Origin: Brachyspira pilosicoli
GTDB taxonomy: Bacteria > Spirochaetota > Brachyspiria > Brachyspirales > Brachyspiraceae
Direction of reading: 5' to 3'
NCBI RefSeq assembly: GCF_008016535.1
Contig: NZ_SAXY01000012.1
Location: 1-64,000, forward strand
Length of the DNA: 64,000 nt
Shown here: piece by piece, positions 2,534 to 34,430 of the stretch
Layout of the letters: each line of letters begins with the position of its first letter
Position numbering within the stretch: the stretch's first letter is position 1
Notes under the pieces: model-generated
Database searches by the model: none
The model's input: only the letters and a program-made list of their open reading frames with translations
What the model was told of the DNA's origin: nothing
Program-made: the position numbers and the translations under genes

Positions 2534-3394
2534 TTAAGCTGTTATTAATTCTTTAACCTTTTGCATTTTAAGTTCTATAATATTTAAGTTTAATAATCTG
2601 CTTGTCAGTCTTCCTTTGATTTCCTCAATGTTATCTTTTCTTGTTTTTATATTTAAGCTATTCATCAAACTGCAGTAATTTTTATTTGATGTAATAATAA
2701 CAGTTTTTTCTAATGCTCTTATTTTATCAAATAATTTATAATAGCCTTCTGCTGCATAATGAAAGCCTACACTGTCAACATCATCAATCATTATAATGTC
2801 TGCAAACTTTACATTTTCTATTTTTGAATCTATGCTTAATTTTAAATCTCTGTCCTGAGCATTTTTATTAAATAGGTTTTTATGCATATCTTCAAAATTA
2901 GATGCTTCTATATACAATACCTTGATATTATTAATGGCATATATTTGCCATAACATTTTAAGCATTGTTGTTTTACCTGTTCCGCTTTTCCCTTCAAGAT
3001 ATAGAGAACTCATACTTCCTAATTCTAAATATTTTTTAATTGTATCTACTAGCTTTTGATTGTTAAACCTATTTGCAAAAATATCTAATGTCATGTCCAT
3101 ATCTAAAGAATTAAATATCTCGTTATATTTAATTCTAATTTTTTCAAGCTCATCTAATTTATTAGATATTTCAGTTTTTTCATTTTTAACACAATCGCAC
3201 ATCTCAGGTAAAAAAACTTTTCTTCCTGAAAATATTGATGACTGAGAAACTTTTTTAAATCCATCTTCATCACATTTTTTGCAATTTGGGTCTTTTCCAT
3301 CTCTTGCTATTTTTTTCAATTCTTCTAAATATTTCTTATAGTTTTGCAAACAGTAGCTGCTATCCGCAATTTGCAATTTTAGAATACGCTTCAT
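2534..3394 (-). CDS. DnaC/DnaI-like AAA+ helicase loader
   Basis: A 286-residue ATPase of the phage DnaC/DnaI type, which delivers the replicative helicase to single-stranded DNA at an origin. The N-terminal part has a likely zinc-binding Cys set (Cys38, Cys41, Cys66, Cys68). The Walker A motif GKSGTGKT is at about 135-142, Walker B IMIDDVD at about 201-207, a sensor-1 like IITSN, and an arginine-containing GRLTSRLLN near the end. I chose the ATG at 3394 over the in-frame TTG at 3397 because AGGAGG lies just upstream. It overlaps the end of the initiator-like gene by 35 bases. The pair initiator plus loader is the usual replication module of temperate phages and some plasmids. Confidence 0.75.
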   Translation of the reverse strand: MKRILKLQIADSSYCLQNYKKYLEELKKIARDGKDPNCKKCDEDGFKKVSQSSIFSGRKVFLPEMCDCVKNEKTEISNKLDELEKIRIKYNEIFNSLDMDMTLDIFANRFNNQKLVDTIKKYLELGSMSSLYLEGKSGTGKTTMLKMLWQIYAINNIKVLYIEASNFEDMHKNLFNKNAQDRDLKLSIDSKIENVKFADIIMIDDVDSVGFHYAAEGYYKLFDKIRALEKTVIITSNKNYCSLMNSLNIKTRKDNIEEIKGRLTSRLLNLNIIELKMQKVKELITA

Positions 3395-4310
3395 CAATAC
3401 TTCCTCCTCTTTCTATTTCTTTTAATAAAAACTCTAATTTTTCAATTCCGCTTGGTATTGTATATTTTTTATCTTCTTCCGATTTTTGATTTCCTTTGTT
3501 GGTATTATTGTTATTACTTTCATTTTTTTGACACAAAGCCATTCTTAATAAATCCTGAAGTTTTAATGAGTATCTTTTATTTAATGGTAATTTTAAGAAG
3601 TTAAACTTTACAATTGACAAGGCTTCATCAAAGTTATCATGCACACGATTTTTAAATATATCAATTAAAAACTTGGTATATGTAATATGAACTCCATATC
3701 TTATTCTACAACCTAATAATTCTTTATGAAGCTCGTTATATTTTTCTAAAAACTCATTTTTCTTTTTGTCTTCTTCTTTTTCTTCTGGAGTTTTTTCTTC
3801 TTCAGGTTTTTCTTTTTCCTCTTTGATTAATTTATGCGGCTGCAATGGTTCTGTGTTTATATCATCTCCGAATAAGCTAGGCTCATCATATTTCTGCTCT
3901 ACAGGAGCATCCATATTTCTTATAGCTCTATCTTCTTCAACAAGCATCTCTATAGCTTTTTTTAATCCTGATAAATTATATACAGTTCCTGTTCCTGCAA
4001 ATTTACCTTCTTTATAAACATTTCTGCTTGAAAAAGTTAGATACCCCTTAGCATATAGGCTTTGTCTTTGTCTTGTATAAATAGTTGATGTTGGGTTAAT
4101 TTCTTTATCTCTGATTTCTTTTTCTTTCTTCCAGCTTAAACTTATTATAGCTATTATAAACTCAAACTCACTTGCTGTAAGTCCTAATCTTTTTCTATAA
4201 TAAATTAATGTATTAGGTATCGATGTAAAACCTCTCTCAAGCATAGCATCGCCAAACGTTGCTATTAAGTATTCATTTTTCACTTCTGTTTTATTGTTCT
4301 CAGTTTGCAT
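3360..4310 (-). CDS. replication-initiator-like protein (winged-helix N-terminus)
   Basis: 316 residues. The N-terminal portion (GFTSIPNTLIYYRKRLGLTASEFEFI) resembles the winged-helix DNA-binding domain at the start of phage and plasmid replication initiators of the DnaD/RepA_N kind. A long acidic/basic low-complexity linker (about 150-200, rich in EEKEKPEEE) is followed by a second helical domain and a charged, asparagine-rich tail. AGAGG upstream of the ATG at 4310 is a good ribosome binding site. It overlaps its upstream neighbour by 11 bases and the helicase loader downstream. The role as initiator is inferred from domain look and order, not from a motif I can prove. Confidence 0.5.
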   Translation of the reverse strand: MQTENNKTEVKNEYLIATFGDAMLERGFTSIPNTLIYYRKRLGLTASEFEFIIAIISLSWKKEKEIRDKEINPTSTIYTRQRQSLYAKGYLTFSSRNVYKEGKFAGTGTVYNLSGLKKAIEMLVEEDRAIRNMDAPVEQKYDEPSLFGDDINTEPLQPHKLIKEEKEKPEEEKTPEEKEEDKKKNEFLEKYNELHKELLGCRIRYGVHITYTKFLIDIFKNRVHDNFDEALSIVKFNFLKLPLNKRYSLKLQDLLRMALCQKNESNNNNTNKGNQKSEEDKKYTIPSGIEKLEFLLKEIERGGSIDEAYSKIANCG

Positions 4311-4668
4311 TTTTTTCTACCTCTGGAAATAATTTTTTTGCTAATTCATACAAGTTATTAATATGACTTGTGTTGTTATTCTTATCAAGCTCAATCGCCA
4401 TTTCTATAGTTTTTATGTTTCTATTTTTTGCCATTTTTTGAAGATTAATTTTTTTTATTCTTGAATATTCTGTATATAAAATCTCATATCTTAATTTTAT
4501 TAATTTTATGTTTCCAAAACTTGTATTATGAATATGCTCATAAAGTTTTCTTCTGATGATATTATTTGATGCATGCTCTTCTTCAAAGTGTAATAAATCT
4601 TTTTTATTAAATATTTTTTTTATTATATATTTTAATAATTCTTTTATTCCTCTTTTTTGAACTATCAT
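4300..4668 (-). CDS. hypothetical basic protein, first intact gene of the cassette
   Basis: 122 residues, strongly basic, predicted all-helical (IKELLKYIIKKIFNKKDLL at the start). A very purine-rich ribosome binding site (GGGGGGAAG) precedes the ATG at 4668. That ATG overlaps, as ATGA, the TGA of an open frame extending upstream to 5015, which suggests a gene formerly lay before it. No recognised domain. It could be a DNA-binding accessory of the replication module that follows. Confidence 0.5.
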   Translation of the reverse strand: MIVQKRGIKELLKYIIKKIFNKKDLLHFEEEHASNNIIRRKLYEHIHNTSFGNIKLIKLRYEILYTEYSRIKKINLQKMAKNRNIKTIEMAIELDKNNNTSHINNLYELAKKLFPEVEKNAN

Positions 4669-5033: not shown

Positions 5034-5460
5034 TGTTCTTATTTTTATTCAACTTTTTCCCGCCGCAAAAAGTTGCAAAAAGTGCAAATACTACAACTTT
5101 ATATTTTACAATATATCTTTGATGTAATATAACATCTAAAATTTAACCTACACCTAAATGTAGATTTTATAAAATGCAGCCTTTTTGCTTCTTTGTGGCA
5201 ACAAAAGAAGTGGGGTGCTACCCTACGGGCACGCTTCGCAGGGGGCAAAGCCCTGCAAATATATTAATTTAAACAAATAATTTTTTTATATTAATATATG
5301 TTTTATTCAACTTTTTCCCGCCTTCGCACCCACAGGCACTTCCTTCGGTCGCTGTGCGGACTTCGTCAAAGTTGCAAAAAGTGCAAGTTAAGAAAGTAAT
5401 ACTAATCATATTTTACATACTAAATATTAAATCAAAAACAATACAAATATTTATTAATTT
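5034..5460 (+). repeat. dispersed structured repeat, composite short A - B - long A
   Basis: Short module A: a perfect hairpin, AACTTTTT (5051-5058), loop CCCGCCGC, AAAAAGTT (5067-5074), followed by GCAAAAAGTGCAAAT. Module B: near 5178-5230, a hairpin with arms CTTCTTTG and CAAAAGAAG (5188-5210), followed by GC-rich small hairpins (GCAGGG..CCCTGC). Long module A: arms AACTTT (5309-5314) and AAAGTT (5368-5373) around a GC-rich insert, then a tail starting AGTGCAAGTTAAGAAAG reaching about 5460. Related copies are at 10985, 15597 and 34108. The GC-rich insides stand out against the AT-rich genome. No protein is encoded. This fills most of the gap before the gene at 5560. Confidence 0.7.
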
Positions 5461-5559
5461 TCTTTATAAAAACTATAGTTAATTATTGGATATTTGGCTA
5501 TATCTTTTTATTTTAAATGATATATAATCATTTTATATTATTATATTAAAAAGGTATAA

Positions 5560-7089
5560 ATGTTTAGGTTTATTTATTTTTTTCTTATTTTGTTAAGCAT
5601 ACTTTCATGCAATAAAAATAATCATCGCTTAGAAGATAAAAATGGTAATAATAATACTTTTGAAAATTCTCAGCTCATATCCAAAGATGGTATAAAAGGA
5701 AGTATTGTTAGAGGTCAAAAGGATTATTATTATTTCAATGTTAATAAAGAAGAGATTATTGATTTTGATATATCTAATCTAGGCGATAAAGCTATTACTA
5801 TGACTTTATGCAACTATAAAACTAATATTGTTAAAGTGATAAGTGAGTTTGAGAATACAAATGAAAACACTAGAGTTTATACTATTCAAACTAATGATAA
5901 AGGTGAAGTATATTCTTCTCAGGTTATGAAAGGTATTTATTTTAGACCATCAGAAAATACTGAAGAAAACAAATATTATATAGTTATAGAATCAAAAAAT
6001 GATGACACTGAATATAGCTTTGTTCTTAAAAAAAGAGAATATAATGAAACTGATGAAAAAGAGCCTAATGATATAATATCTAGGTCGCAGATAATAGATG
6101 TTAATAGTGAAAATAGACTCTATACTATAGATGGATATTATAGCCAAATTTTTAACCCTAAGTTATATTCTGGAGATTTAAAAAACATGGAAATAGATTC
6201 TTATAAAGTTACAAACAGTTCTTTTAATGCTTATTCTATATCTATAGAGCTTTCTGGAGTTCCTTCTGTTGATGCTAGTATAAGATTATATGACAATATG
6301 GGAAACTTTATTGCCAATTATGACCTTAATAATGTTGGTGATGGAGAAACTGTGGATAAGTTAGTGTTATATCCTTATATGTCATATTATTTTGTTTTGG
6401 TGTCTGAGAGGGCTGTATTAAATATACCATATAGGGTAAGTGTATTAGCTAAACCTTATGATAAATATACTGAAGATGAACCTAATAATAAATATACACA
6501 AGCACAAAATTTAGAGTTTAATAAAACTTATAAGGGTGCTATAGATTATTCTTATGACAGAGATTATTATACATTTAATGTTCCGATACAATCAAGTATA
6601 AAATTATCTTATTTTTTGATAGATTCTCAGGCTATTAATTTAAGAATATCTAATGAAAATGAAGGAATAATAGCTACTATGCCTCAAAATGATGATGAGT
6701 ATATTACTAGCTTAAAACAAGGAAAATATTATTTGATTTTTGAGAGAGATACCACTAAAGAGAAATGGGTGAAGGGCAGTTCTAATATTAGAAATTATGA
6801 GTTTAGTATGGCTATATCCAATGAAATTAGCGGCTATTATGAGGATTTAAATTACCTTAATGATTATTATAGCAATGATTATGATGATAGTTTCTATAAT
6901 AATAGTGACGGCTTTTACAATAATGGATATAGCGGCAGTGTTAATAATGATAATCAAACAGAATATAAAAATGAAGAAACTAATAATTATATTATACTAA
7001 AAGATGAAGATTATAATGCAGAGTATTATCATTATAATAGTGAAGATAATGATATAATACAAGAATATACTAATTATGGTGAATATTAA
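5560..7089 (+). CDS. lipoprotein with pre-peptidase-like (PPC) repeats
   Basis: 509 residues with a lipoprotein signal peptide; the lipobox ILSC puts the lipidated Cys at position 17. The body holds repeated beta-rich units. They are marked by acidic EPND/EPNN linkers (DEKEPND, TEDEPNN) followed by GAIDYSYDRDYYTF-like strands, the signature layout of bacterial pre-peptidase C-terminal domains, which are usually extracellular accessory beta-sandwiches. The last 90 residues are low complexity, rich in Asn, Tyr, Asp and Glu. It is the first gene of an operon with the AsmA-like gene (2-base gap). A likely -10 (TATAAT, 5523-5528) and AAGG precede the ATG. Likely an envelope-associated scaffold; no enzyme motif is present. 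Confidence 0.7.
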   Translation: MFRFIYFFLILLSILSCNKNNHRLEDKNGNNNTFENSQLISKDGIKGSIVRGQKDYYYFNVNKEEIIDFDISNLGDKAITMTLCNYKTNIVKVISEFENTNENTRVYTIQTNDKGEVYSSQVMKGIYFRPSENTEENKYYIVIESKNDDTEYSFVLKKREYNETDEKEPNDIISRSQIIDVNSENRLYTIDGYYSQIFNPKLYSGDLKNMEIDSYKVTNSSFNAYSISIELSGVPSVDASIRLYDNMGNFIANYDLNNVGDGETVDKLVLYPYMSYYFVLVSERAVLNIPYRVSVLAKPYDKYTEDEPNNKYTQAQNLEFNKTYKGAIDYSYDRDYYTFNVPIQSSIKLSYFLIDSQAINLRISNENEGIIATMPQNDDEYITSLKQGKYYLIFERDTTKEKWVKGSSNIRNYEFSMAISNEISGYYEDLNYLNDYYSNDYDDSFYNNSDGFYNNGYSGSVNNDNQTEYKNEETNNYIILKDEDYNAEYYHYNSEDNDIIQEYTNYGEY

Positions 7090-7091
7090 TT

Positions 7092-10000
7092 ATGGGTATA
7101 AAGGATATTTTTAAGAAAAAAAATATAAAAAAAGATTCATCTGAAAATAAAGAATCATATTTAGAAAATAATACTAAAGAAAATAATTCTAAAAAAAGAA
7201 GATTTAAAAAGAGATATATTCCTTTAATAATAATTTGTGTTTTAATTATAGCTTTAATTGGGGTTAGGATATATTTAAATAATGATAGGGTAAAGACTAT
7301 AGTAGAGAATGTAGTATATTCTTCTCTAAACAGAAAATTAGTAATAGAAAAATTTAGTTATGGACTGCTCTTTCCTAAGATAGAAGCAAGCAATGTAATT
7401 CTTTATAATTCTACAAATTTTAATGAAGCAGAAAATATAAGTTTAGATAATTTAAGATTAAGGTTTTCATTATTTCAATTATTTTTTTTAAGGCTTCATA
7501 TAAAAGAATTAAGCATAGACAATTTGTATGTTAATATGTTTACCGATGAGGCAGGAAATTGGAATCTTCCAGATATGCCGCCTTCAGAGCCAAAGATTGA
7601 AGACACAAACAAAGAGCCTTTTGATTTTACTAAATTAGATTTTCTAAAATTAAAAGCTGATATAGAAAATATTAGAATTAATAATTTATCATTTAGTGCT
7701 GATAGTTTATCTTATGTTACAAATAACAGCGGACTTTTTGCAAGTTTAAATAATTTTAATTTGCATTTAGATTTAAATACTAAAAGATTTTCTTTGTCTA
7801 AAGTAATGGGAGTTTCTGCTCCTGAGGTTCTAAAAAAACTTAATATAAAAAGTTTTATAAGTAATGATTTAGTTTATAATAATTCTGCTTTAAATTTCAA
7901 AGATGAACCATTATTTAATTTGGATATATCTTATCTTAATGAAGATGAGATAAAAATTGTATTTGATTTTGAAGTGAGCGAGCCAAATTTAAGATATAAT
8001 GGAATTAAAAAAGATGATATGCAATTAGCATTTAATTTGCTTGCAAGATATAACATAAAAACTCAAAGCGTATTTATAGATAATATTTCATCAGAGCTTT
8101 TGAATGATGAAATATTAAAAGTAATAGCATCTGCAGCAAATATATTTAATGACAATATAGGAATTGATTTAAATACTTTTTATGCAAGGCTTGATTTAGG
8201 AAAATTAAATAGTTTAACTTCTATGTTTGTTCCAGCATTAGGTATAAACATGAATGGGCTTTTGAATGTTGATGCTGATAAAACTACAGGCACTATTAAT
8301 AATCTTAACAATAAACTTACTATAGCTATGAAGAATATCAATTTTGATATGCAAAAAACTATATCTATAAATAATCTTAATTCTACAACTGTAGTAGATT
8401 TAATTATTAATCCAGAAATACAAGTAGCTGTTGATAATAAACTCACAATAGAGAGAGCAACTGCTTTAAGAAGATATAGATTTAATAATGCTAATGCGGC
8501 ATTGAGGGTGGATTCTTCATTAAACGGACTTACTTCTATAGCTACTGTAATAAATGACCCTAATAAAAAAAGCGATGCTGTTGTTTATATAGATGATATT
8601 TCTGCTAAATATGGAAACTCTAGTATTTTACTTAAAGGGATTGTACGTTTTGATGAGCCTACAGATTTAAAATTGAATGTTACATCTCTTCCAGTAGCTG
8701 ATTTTAGCGGAGGTATTGCGAGAGGTTCATTAAACTTAGATGCTAATATTTTTGGTAAGCTATTAAGCGATATAGACCTTAATTTGAAAGGAATAATAAA
8801 TAATTTCTCTTACAATTTAAATGGTGAGGTTTCTTCTACTACAAAGGCTAATATTAATATGCTTGCTAATGCCAATATTATTTCACAGGATATTAATGTT
8901 TCTGAGTTTAATATTGATTTGGGTAATTTCTTTAATTTTAAGTCTTATTTAAATTTACAAGGTATGGGGTTAAAAAGCGGTTTTGTTAATGTGCATACTT
9001 TAAGAATTGCTCCTTATGCTATGAAAAATTGGCTTTCTACAAAGTTTGCTGAGTTAGTAGACGGACTTCCTTTTGAAGATGATGTTAAGCTAACAAGTGC
9101 TATTGCTTATAATTTGTCTTTAGAAGATACATTTGCGAGCGTTACAAATTATACAACTGTTTATGTAACAGAAAAGCAGTATAAGCTTCAAGATGTTACT
9201 ATGAAAGTTGATGCTGATGTTAATTTTGGTGAGAACTTATATGCTAATATAAGAAAGTTTAATATAGATAGTCCTACTAATAATTTGAAGGTGAGAGTTG
9301 ATGGATATTTTTCACCTGTGCTAAAAAATGCTAATTTAAATTATGAGGTTGGTTTAGATACTGATAGTTTATATTTGCCTTTTGGAATTGAGATTGGAGG
9401 GCTTTTAAGCATAATAGGAAATTTAAAAAATAATATTGCTGATGGAGATTTGATTGCTGATAATTTCTTTGCTAATATGGATTCCCCAGATAAAATGTCT
9501 ATATTATTAAAAGGTTTGGATTCTAATATAGATTATCATTTTGATTTAACTCCTAATAAAAATCAGACGGTTTCAACTGCTGCAAGATATAACCCTCTAA
9601 CAAGCCAAGTACCAAATTTATTTATTGACCAGCTTAGAGTATATTTAAAAATACCTCCTTTTATAGATGACAGTATTAGGATAATGGATTTTTCTTCTTC
9701 TGTGAGAGTACAAGGACATGGACTTACAATACAAGATTTGAAATCATCACTATACATTGGTGGAGAGAAGTTTGATGATAATTTATTTTTAGCATCTATA
9801 TCAAATAACACAGCACCTAGAAGGGGGGCTATAAACTTGCCTTGGCTTAATGTTGATTTGGGAAGCTTTGATACTAGCACTATAAAATATGATATGAGAA
9901 TGCTTGCAAGTGATATTAACTTTAAATATTTGCTTCCTCCAGAAAATAGAGATAAAATTAATGATGAAAAATTGTTGGTTAATTTAACAGCAGATATTGC

Positions 10001-10343
10001 AGGAGTTGGAATTAGCCCTCTTAATAATATAAGACCTACTACATTCTTTGTAGGTATTAGTAAAATGTCTACAGAGTTTTCTAAATTCTTAATAGAAATG
10101 ATACGACCTATTAACCCCGGCATATCTACAGTTGAAAATATTGTTCAATTTGGTTATGACCCTAATTCTGTAGAGTTTAGTATATCTGCAAATAAAGTGT
10201 TTACAACATTCTACTTTAGAGACCAAAATTTAGATAAACCTAGTCAGCAAAAACAGCAACTAATAGCATTTGAAGGCGATAAATTTGGTCTTGAGCCTAT
10301 GCCTTTTTCTGATGTTATATCTTACTTAGAAGGCGGAAATTAA
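7092..10343 (+). CDS. AsmA-like inner-membrane anchored envelope protein
   Basis: 1083 residues. After a basic cytoplasmic tail of about 42 residues comes one membrane segment (about 43-62, PLIIICVLIIALIGVRIYL), then a very long periplasmic region. The region after the anchor (NRKLVIEKFSYGLLFPKIEA, then NLRLRF..) matches the start of AsmA/YhdP/TamB-type proteins. These form long beta-sheet grooves thought to move phospholipid between inner and outer membrane. Repeated amphipathic strands with N-L-x-L-x-L patterns continue to the C-terminus. It is sandwiched by lipoprotein genes 2 bases upstream and 9 bases downstream, so all three are surely one operon. The family call rests on architecture; the lipid-transport role is established for relatives but inferred here. 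Confidence 0.7.
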   Translation: MGIKDIFKKKNIKKDSSENKESYLENNTKENNSKKRRFKKRYIPLIIICVLIIALIGVRIYLNNDRVKTIVENVVYSSLNRKLVIEKFSYGLLFPKIEASNVILYNSTNFNEAENISLDNLRLRFSLFQLFFLRLHIKELSIDNLYVNMFTDEAGNWNLPDMPPSEPKIEDTNKEPFDFTKLDFLKLKADIENIRINNLSFSADSLSYVTNNSGLFASLNNFNLHLDLNTKRFSLSKVMGVSAPEVLKKLNIKSFISNDLVYNNSALNFKDEPLFNLDISYLNEDEIKIVFDFEVSEPNLRYNGIKKDDMQLAFNLLARYNIKTQSVFIDNISSELLNDEILKVIASAANIFNDNIGIDLNTFYARLDLGKLNSLTSMFVPALGINMNGLLNVDADKTTGTINNLNNKLTIAMKNINFDMQKTISINNLNSTTVVDLIINPEIQVAVDNKLTIERATALRRYRFNNANAALRVDSSLNGLTSIATVINDPNKKSDAVVYIDDISAKYGNSSILLKGIVRFDEPTDLKLNVTSLPVADFSGGIARGSLNLDANIFGKLLSDIDLNLKGIINNFSYNLNGEVSSTTKANINMLANANIISQDINVSEFNIDLGNFFNFKSYLNLQGMGLKSGFVNVHTLRIAPYAMKNWLSTKFAELVDGLPFEDDVKLTSAIAYNLSLEDTFASVTNYTTVYVTEKQYKLQDVTMKVDADVNFGENLYANIRKFNIDSPTNNLKVRVDGYFSPVLKNANLNYEVGLDTDSLYLPFGIEIGGLLSIIGNLKNNIADGDLIADNFFANMDSPDKMSILLKGLDSNIDYHFDLTPNKNQTVSTAARYNPLTSQVPNLFIDQLRVYLKIPPFIDDSIRIMDFSSSVRVQGHGLTIQDLKSSLYIGGEKFDDNLFLASISNNTAPRRGAINLPWLNVDLGSFDTSTIKYDMRMLASDINFKYLLPPENRDKINDEKLLVNLTADIAGVGISPLNNIRPTTFFVGISKMSTEFSKFLIEMIRPINPGISTVENIVQFGYDPNSVEFSISANKVFTTFYFRDQNLDKPSQQKQQLIAFEGDKFGLEPMPFSDVISYLEGGN

Positions 10344-10352
10344 GGAGATTTT

Positions 10353-10955
10353 ATGAAAAAGCATTTAATATTTTGTATTTTTATATCAATGATTTTTACT
10401 AGCTGTTCTAAACTAATATTAGTTCAAGAGCCTGAGATGAGAGTTTTGGGAGGAAAAACTTTGATAGAGGCACAGGTTTTAGGAAGATATAGACAGATTG
10501 ATGAGAGTGCTTATCAGATTTCTACTCTTTCAACTGATAAAGATTTAAGCCTAATAATGGTGAGTACAAATGTTTCTGATGAAGTAGCTGCAGAATATAA
10601 AGAAGCTTTAATTAGAAGTATGTTTAATCAAGATGAGATTAACCTTTATAAAACCAATGCCTATATTGGTGAGAACAATAGCGGATATTTATCATATATA
10701 GCTTTTGATGTTACAGAGCCTGAAGTTCAATATGGAGAAACTAGAATAGAATATATAAAAGAGATAATGGAAAAAGAAAATGCTGATAGAAAGATTATAG
10801 CGGAATATTTAATATTATCAGACCCAAAACTTACAATGTCTAATATAAAAGAAGTAGAAGCTGCACTTTATAAGAGAAATATAGAGCGTCTTGTAAATAA
10901 CAGCTACTATCAGCTGCCAGATAATAGTTGGACTTTATACACAAACTCTAATTAA
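10353..10955 (+). CDS. lipoprotein of the AsmA-like operon
   Basis: 200 residues with a lipoprotein signal peptide; the FTSC lipobox gives lipidated Cys18. The mature part is a mixed alpha/beta domain without a family I recognise. A strong ribosome binding site (AAGGAG) lies between the AsmA-like stop and this ATG, only 9 bases away. Being third in the operon, it may be an outer-membrane partner for the AsmA-like bridge. The AsmA link is inference from position. Confidence 0.65.
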   Translation: MKKHLIFCIFISMIFTSCSKLILVQEPEMRVLGGKTLIEAQVLGRYRQIDESAYQISTLSTDKDLSLIMVSTNVSDEVAAEYKEALIRSMFNQDEINLYKTNAYIGENNSGYLSYIAFDVTEPEVQYGETRIEYIKEIMEKENADRKIIAEYLILSDPKLTMSNIKEVEAALYKRNIERLVNNSYYQLPDNSWTLYTNSN

Positions 10956-10984: not shown

Positions 10985-11124
10985 TTCTATTGTTCTTTTT
11001 CCTGCAGCTCGCGGTGCGGACTTCGTCAAAAGAACTAAAAAGTGCAAGTTAAGAAAGTAATACTAATCATATTTTATATACTAAATATTAAATCAAAAAC
11101 AATACAAATATTTATTAATTTAGT
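10985..11124 (+). repeat. dispersed structured repeat, long module A
   Basis: Arms GTTCTTTT (10992-10999) and AAAAGAAC (11028-11035) enclose a GC-rich insert, GCTCGCGGTGCGGACTTCGTC and neighbours. It is followed by the tail AGTGCAAGTTAAGAAAGTA shared nearly base for base with 5383-5460. The arm sequence differs from the 5034 locus (AACTTTTT) yet remains self-complementary, so the pairing is kept while the bases change. It sits just after the AsmA operon and could act as its terminator. Confidence 0.65.
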
Positions 11125-11140
11125 TTTTAAACAACTCTAT

Positions 11141-34061: not shown

Positions 34062-34107
34062 ATTGCATTTATTGCCATTACTTAAAACCTTTTGGGATTA
34101 ATAATAT

Positions 34108-34430
34108 TTATGTTGTTTTTGATTTAATATTTAGTATGTAAAATAATTAGTATTACTTTCTTAACTTGCACTTTCGCGAAGCGTGCCCGAAGGGCGAAAA
34201 CTTTTTGCTACGGGAAAAAGTTGAATAAAAAACTTATATAACAAAATTTTTTAAGTTTTATGATTTGTGGGGACTAGCCCCCGCACCACCACTTCTTTTG
34301 CTGCCACAAAGAAGCAAAAAGGCTATATTTAACCAACTTAATAATTTATACTATATATAAAATATAATTATTATAATTTTGTATTAATTTTATATTTGCA
34401 CTTTTTGCAACGGTAAAATATGATAATAGA
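34108..34430 (-). repeat. dispersed structured repeat, composite short A - B - long A, reverse orientation
   Basis: Read on the minus strand: short A remnant (34430-34386, GTTGCAAAAAGTGCAAAT), module B (34330-34267, CTTCTTTGTGGCAGCAAAAGAAG split by loop), then long A. The long A hairpin is AACTTTTT, CCCGTAGC, AAAAAGTT (34222-34199), followed by a GC-rich hairpin GCCCTTCGGGC and the tail AGTGCAAGTTAAGAAAG to 34108. Same module order as the 5034 locus but inverted in the chromosome. It fills most of the 589-base gap before flgL; no gene is present. Confidence 0.7.

Follow-up and report, generated by a model that had tools for sequence, protein, structure and literature searches.

How phospholipids of spirochaetes travel to the outer membrane is, to our knowledge, an open question, and a locus of Brachyspira pilosicoli, in which a long AsmA-like gene is enclosed by two lipoprotein genes, leads us to ask whether these genes encode a bridge between the two membranes. 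The locus lies in a stretch of 64,000 nucleotides (contig NZ_SAXY01000012.1, assembly GCF_008016535.1), hereafter called the window, and consists of three adjacent open reading frames (ORFs) on the plus strand, P0001, P0002 and P0003. We propose that P0002 and P0003 form a two-gene intermembrane lipid bridge that would work like YdbH-YnbE-YdbL of E. coli, with one lipoprotein taking the place of YnbE and YdbL, and with P0001 as an accessory or third partner; we give this reading a probability of about 60%. The established part comprises the gene order and its conservation, the YdbL fold and homology of P0003, the AsmA-type family of P0002 and the co-occurrence of the two.

A conserved three-gene block in Brachyspira

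A first-pass annotation of the window had described a 1083-residue AsmA-like gene locked between two lipoprotein genes, from which 2 and 9 bases separate it. This description was confirmed, with the gaps located at 7090-7091 and 10344-10352, and the conservation of the trio across the genus, which that annotation had put forward as a check, was borne out as well. P0001, P0002 and P0003 are each present in all 26 Brachyspira genomes, and 24 of these (23 other loci and the window) carry the block intact on one contig in the same order and on the same strand, which argues against an order due to chance. In G003 and G012 the block is cut by contig ends and the remaining order is consistent with the trio. 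BLAST identities across the genus range from 51-93% for P0001 and 60-97% for P0002 to 71-98.5% for P0003. In the flanks of the 25 other genomes (about 7 kb on each side, less on short contigs) none of the nine window neighbours tested was found beside the trio, save for a partial match of 31% identity to one of them in L044. The 2-bp gap between P0001 and P0002 is confined to the window and four closely related species; the 20 remaining loci measured have 14-127 bp there, which is too short for an additional gene of usual size. The trio is a real, conserved unit in Brachyspira.

The putatively lipidated YdbL protein and its proposed AsmA-like partner

Judged by sequence and predicted fold, P0003 belongs to the YdbL (DUF1318) family and bears a putative lipidation cysteine. 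Residues 96-194 match PF07027 (DUF1318) with 26.0 bits (E 1.4e-5), and relatives score over the cut-off (L099 37.9 bits, L091 43.4 bits). DUF1318 is matched by all 20 spirochaete proteins of our spread alignment A4, chosen by ourselves and including P0003, with a best E of 4e-13. Comparison of the P0003 profile with six proteobacterial YdbL sequences by hhalign gave 98.2% (E 3.9e-14). The predicted model of P0003 (mean pLDDT 74, 92 of 200 residues at ≥90) matched the E. coli YdbL crystal structure 28oj with a Foldseek probability of 1.00, and VIA-align superposed the two with Z 10.2 and a root mean square deviation (rmsd) of 2.1 Å over 87/87 residues, the next chain reaching Z 4.3. The E. coli member of the DUF1318 family is YdbL itself, encoded in ydbH-ynbE-ydbL, so that a known system supplies the partner of the AsmA-like protein, a connection missed by the first-pass annotation.

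The N-termini of P0001 and P0003 are signal peptides ending in a cysteine (Cys17 and Cys18), although the residues preceding it are, in our reading, not strictly canonical for lipidation. From sequence features of this kind we infer that P0001 and P0003 are lipidated and that the proteins are located at the membranes. Residues 20-70 of P0003 are predicted to be disordered and include segment 30-58, the conservation of which is matched by none of the 113 equal windows in residues 59-200. A segment that is unstructured yet invariant usually binds something, and the same may apply here.

P0002 is probably an AsmA-like, inner-membrane-anchored protein of repeated strands that is kept together with lipoprotein partners, as judged from profile matches and a structural model. 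Its residues 32-180 match DUF748 (PF05359) with E 1.7e-10 and 40.1 bits, under the curated cut-off of 50, and NCBIfam LIC_11026 (NF047499) is matched with E 1.1e-25 and 89.8 bits (cut-off 325). A profile of 19 spirochaete AsmA proteins, all from outside Brachyspira, matches both halves of P0002 (residues 13-430 and 559-1055) at E 6.5e-37. Four of six relatives adjoining DUF1318 lipoproteins (L099, L091, L107 and L097) pass the AsmA cut-off (PF05170), L103 and L085 stay under it, and P0002 itself matches DUF748 only; the L099 protein also passes LIC_11026 (330, cut-off 325).

The N-terminus of P0002 shows a basic tail and one hydrophobic helix, and the AlphaFold2 (AF2) model, built with 20 sequences (mean pLDDT 63), consists of one anchor helix and 50 predicted strands, with pLDDT mostly 70-90 in residues 48-420 and 530-820 and low values after about residue 823. 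Structure prediction had been suggested earlier as a way to look for a hydrophobic groove: the repeated strands were indeed predicted, but with medium confidence and structural matches of low TM-score, so that a continuous hydrophobic groove is likely only. Among the highest-ranked Foldseek matches are ApoB and, with TM-scores ≤0.30, the N-terminus of Vps13 (probability 0.96) and LPD-3 (0.89), the latter a bridge-like lipid transporter. Among the best 50 matches the only AsmA-superfamily entry is a TamAB hybrid barrel (probability 0.35); the scarcity of such entries among the matches listed carries no weight.

Conservation of P0002 and P0003 peaks where the two would be expected to touch. Within Brachyspira, residues 910-1083 of P0002 exceed all other regions compared, with a pairwise identity of 0.929. 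In the 19 homologues from outside the genus, conservation is again strongest in the last 180 residues (0.52-0.59 in windows of 50 residues, counted along L107), followed by residues 151-200 with 0.51. This pattern is compatible with binding of an outer-membrane lipoprotein by the C-terminus.

Table 1. Genes of the Brachyspira trio and the features assigned to them, in window coordinates
Feature	Position	Strand	Description or evidence
P0001	5560-7089	+	509-aa lipoprotein, PPC-like
Putative lipidation Cys17 of P0001	5608-5610	+	Invariant in 17 alignment rows; presumed site of lipid attachment
P0001 conserved core, residues 161-425	6040-6834	+	Pairwise identity 0.84 and 0.82
P0002	7092-10343	+	1083-aa AsmA-like putative bridge
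Putative inner-membrane anchor helix of P0002, residues 42-61	7215-7274	+	Hydropathy peak, predicted helix
Repeated beta-strand region of P0002, residues 82-992, probable groove	7335-10067	+	AF2 model
P0002 C-terminal end, residues 910-1083, proposed outer-membrane-side docking end	9819-10340	+	126/174 residues invariant
P0003	10353-10955	+	200-aa lipoprotein, C-terminal YdbL (DUF1318) domain
Putative lipidation Cys18 of P0003	10404-10406	+	Invariant in 16 Brachyspira rows; presumed site of lipid attachment
P0003 segment 30-58, proposed docking strand	10440-10526	+	28/29 residues invariant, pLDDT ~40
DUF1318/YdbL domain of P0003	10638-10934	+	PF07027 match, hhalign, fold

In the proposed bridge P0002 would be held in the inner membrane by its one helix and its repeated beta-groove would span the periplasm, so that phospholipids, or other spirochaete outer-membrane lipids, could move along it. 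By analogy with YnbE on YdbH we infer that P0003, by means of its lipid and segment 30-58, docks on the C-terminal end of P0002. The YdbL domain, a separate protein in E. coli, is here tethered to the P0003 chain and may control or cap the junction; P0001, a PPC-type lipoprotein, would serve as an accessory or third partner in Brachyspira. In the E. coli system YdbL is reported to curb self-stacking of YnbE. A further-reaching version of our proposal is that spirochaetes possess a distinct bridge: the outer-membrane docking by YnbE and the control of assembly by YdbL would be combined in a single lipoprotein, YdbL domains would partner AsmA-type bridges generally and not YdbH alone, the invariant, disordered segment of 29 residues would supply the last strand of the bridge on its outer-membrane side, and the tethered YdbL domain, present one-to-one, would stop the segment from stacking on itself. 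We regard this version as tentative, with somewhat less than even odds.

Distribution of the pair, known systems and rival explanations

Relatives of P0003 were found in 58 of 296 Spirochaetota genomes with the 16-row profile A1 and in 104 with the broader 24-row profile A7. Outside Brachyspira 78 genomes have the DUF1318 lipoprotein, and in 60 of them a same-strand AsmA match lies directly upstream of it. An AsmA match anywhere in the genome is present in 77 of the 78, versus 21 of 192 genomes without the lipoprotein, a comparison among related genomes in which some AsmA matches are weak or N-terminal only. A second, named genome collection contains at least 28 P0003-type loci, 26 of them titled Spirochaetes or similar. 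An AsmA gene, whole or cut by the contig, is located directly upstream in 25 of the 28 loci listed (the exceptions are L132-L134); several of these loci are contigs of genomes already counted and are not independent.

The closest comparison is with the YdbH-YnbE-YdbL system of E. coli. Lipid homeostasis there depends collectively on three AsmA-type proteins, YdbH among them (PMC8593681; PMC12977461), and a ydbH-ynbE-ydbL plasmid restores growth on MacConkey agar in the absence of tamB and yhdP (PMC8593681). YnbE was reported to dock on YdbH (PMC11784454), and the interaction has been proposed for the YdbH C-terminus (PMC12045153). In E. coli and here, an AsmA-superfamily gene adjoins lipoprotein and YdbL-domain genes, the YdbL (DUF1318) gene stands beside the AsmA gene, and the bridge has a single inner-membrane helix, in our case a predicted one. 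The differences are that P0002 does not belong to PF11739 and that no separate YnbE was found; moreover P0003 has a putative lipidation cysteine and an N-terminal segment unlike YnbE, whereas E. coli YdbL has no such cysteine. We do not claim membership in this system, because a PF11739 bridge and a separate YnbE were looked for and not found.

Other families resemble single parts of the locus. AsmA/DUF748 (PF05170, PF05359) and LIC_11026 share the N-terminal part matched by P0002 and its relatives, but P0002 remains under the curated cut-offs. TamB with TamA or TamL is likewise an AsmA-superfamily bridge whose C-terminus meets an outer-membrane partner, and TamL is, like P0003, a lipoprotein (PMC12045153); in contrast, the partner of P0002 is a small YdbL lipoprotein and not a barrel, and P0002 has no match to PF04357, the TamB family.

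In P0001 the tail (residues 426-509) has a pairwise identity of 0.54, below that of the core, and the core contains EPNN/EPND motifs of PPC type. The pre-peptidase-like repeats of the first-pass annotation received support from distant relatives linked to P0001 by profile search, two of six scanned passing the Pfam PPC (PF04151) cut-off of 25.9 bits (49.4 and 40.1 bits), but not from the Brachyspira copies, none of 17 of which reaches the Pfam model. Relatives of P0001 occur in 31 genomes of the Spirochaetota sample outside Brachyspira, and at all 12 places inspected among them the flanking stretch is free of an AsmA-YdbL pair, for which reason we consider P0001 probably accessory in the Brachyspira block. 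The sister genus G146 has the pair without a relative of P0001. Conversely, the small genomes G065 and G073, both from a different genus of the same family, have a P0001-type lipoprotein without the pair and give no AsmA or DUF1318 match with the profiles used here. The earlier suggestion that the lipoproteins are partners of the AsmA-like protein agrees with the trio kept in Brachyspira, but is not supported for the PPC lipoprotein as a partner in spirochaetes at large. In the G065 and G073 loci (L142 and L143) the P0001-type lipoprotein gene lies close to a gene that looks rhodanese-like by eye.

An alternative is that the bridge docks at the outer membrane mainly through P0001, with P0003 acting only as a YdbL-type chaperone. 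P0001 is kept directly upstream in every Brachyspira genome with an intact locus, has a conserved core and opens the block, in the window and four close species with a gap of only 2 bp. We nevertheless consider this role quite improbable in view of the distribution of P0001 just described, both at the 12 inspected places and in G146, G065 and G073, and because P0003 carries its own lipidation cysteine and an invariant tether. A different function for the pair, which would then export or assemble proteins or lipoproteins of the outer membrane instead of transferring lipids in bulk, could be read from the loci of other families. In many of these the pair is followed by a lipoprotein-like gene of about 1,400-2,600 aa (e.g. 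L097:8110-15477 and L093:5994-13679; in many cases the fetched stretch ends within the gene) that resembles a cargo, and the two such proteins scanned contain a TolB/PD40 propeller and tetratricopeptide repeats, with a CHAT match just over the cut-off in L093. TamB has also been tied to protein assembly as well as to lipids (PMC12045153). Against this stand the role of E. coli ydbH-ynbE-ydbL in lipid homeostasis (PMC8593681) and the position of ynbE ahead of ydbL in seven of the eight proteobacterial ydbL loci read, the eighth being that of Phenylobacterium. In the window's genome the large lipoprotein homologue (2309 aa, L158:4337-11266 on contig C53) is unlinked to the trio, so that we reject it as a core member for this genome, the only one of Brachyspira in which it was sought; we judge a function in export unlikely. 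That the three genes are merely co-transcribed and act separately is very improbable: P0001 is separable from the pair and 18 of the 78 other genomes have no AsmA match beside the DUF1318 gene, but the pair is adjacent in 60 and co-occurs in 77 of the 78, and 24 of 26 Brachyspira blocks are intact while their neighbours are not kept.

The two-gene bridge of P0002 and P0003, which we prefer, has to be weighed against a number of results that speak against it. Regarding the family assignments, P0002 has no PF11739 (YdbH-like) match up to E 1 and hhalign of P0002 against YdbH found nothing (probability 0.7%), by which P0002 was rejected as a YdbH family member; six relatives were likewise without a PF11739 match up to E 0.1, with E. 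coli YdbH as control at 970 bits. The DUF1318 score of P0003 falls just under the curated cut-off of 27 bits. YnbE (PF13617) was found over the cut-off in none of the 26 Brachyspira genomes, where weak matches had E 0.01-1.5 only and were mostly very short frames, and in none of 20 P0003-type proteins (E. coli YnbE control 59.3 bits). Homology of the N-terminal segment of P0003 to YnbE had appeared plausible by eye (position after the lipid cysteine; IEHEI versus IERQI) and was rejected since profile comparison of residues 18-62 detected no similarity to YnbE; segment 30-58 is therefore called YnbE-like by position only. Regarding the structure, confidence in the P0002 model is medium overall and low precisely where the C-terminus is conserved, and its Foldseek matches also include ApoB and beta-barrels with low TM-scores. 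The corresponding VIA-align matches (Z 13.4 and below), many with rmsd >10 Å, were set aside and are read as a resemblance of repeated strands only. The hydrophobic alternation of the strands is modest, being reached by 39 of 2000 shuffles.

Regarding distribution, the pair is not adjacent in the 18 genomes mentioned, which comprise 10 of 10 from family f17, two each from f40 and f31 and one each from f13, f23, f45 and f6; some of these cases may be split by contig ends. In the one f17 locus read, from genome G077 (L155:5797-6456, L156:5608-8697), the DUF1318 gene stands beside a gene named ZapA-like from a motif, and about 0.9 Mb separate it from the AsmA gene. A Phenylobacterium plasmid carries a YdbL gene without a ydbH or ynbE partner beside it. 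Together with f17 this lone gene indicates that the link between YdbL domain and bridge is not universal.

Sequence context and meaning for spirochaetes

P0003 is preceded by a clear ribosome-binding sequence (AAGGAG). The ATG start of P0002 has no clear one before it, which together with the 2-bp gap suggests translational coupling of P0001 and P0002. Promoter and terminator scans around the trio were uninformative in this AT-rich region. A 95-bp direct repeat brackets the trio (5376-5470 and 11037-11131, plus strand), with a third copy on the minus strand (34097-34174); the copies are intergenic and 93-96% identical, and diverged copies also flank the trio in a related species (L031). The repeat was considered as a mobile-element border and rejected, since the third copy and those in L031 mark it as a dispersed intergenic repeat. 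Upstream of the trio, 2534-4668 on the minus strand contains a DnaC-like loader gene, named by eye, and a gene for a phage-type replication protein with a weak Pfam Phage_rep_O match (E 0.099), a possible mobile remnant.

The first-pass annotation had also assumed that spirochaetes lack lipopolysaccharide (LPS) transport of the usual type. This assumption is not supported for the window's genome, in which a survey of the LptF/LptG and LptA/LptD_N types, leaving LptB, LptC and the LptD barrel outside the search, yielded two LptF/LptG genes (259 and 206 bits) and one protein of the LptA/LptD_N type (39.9 bits); a TamB gene (25.6 bits, cut-off 22.4) is also present, away from the trio. Borrelia, which has no LPS, also keeps an Lpt system (PMC10353723).

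YdbL is hardly mentioned in the open-licence papers searched, though the crystal structure 28oj is now in the PDB, and in these papers we found no description, by title or start of abstract, of the AsmA-YdbL pair in spirochaetes. On our reading the trio would represent a variation, with a putatively lipidated YdbL protein, on a type of intermembrane bridge already known. That YdbL occurs naturally as a lipoprotein suggests that it works at the outer-membrane end of an AsmA bridge, and P0003 offers a short invariant segment for mutation. For the spirochaetes, the pair provides a two-gene candidate for a lipid bridge that is present in about one third of the Spirochaetota genomes sampled.

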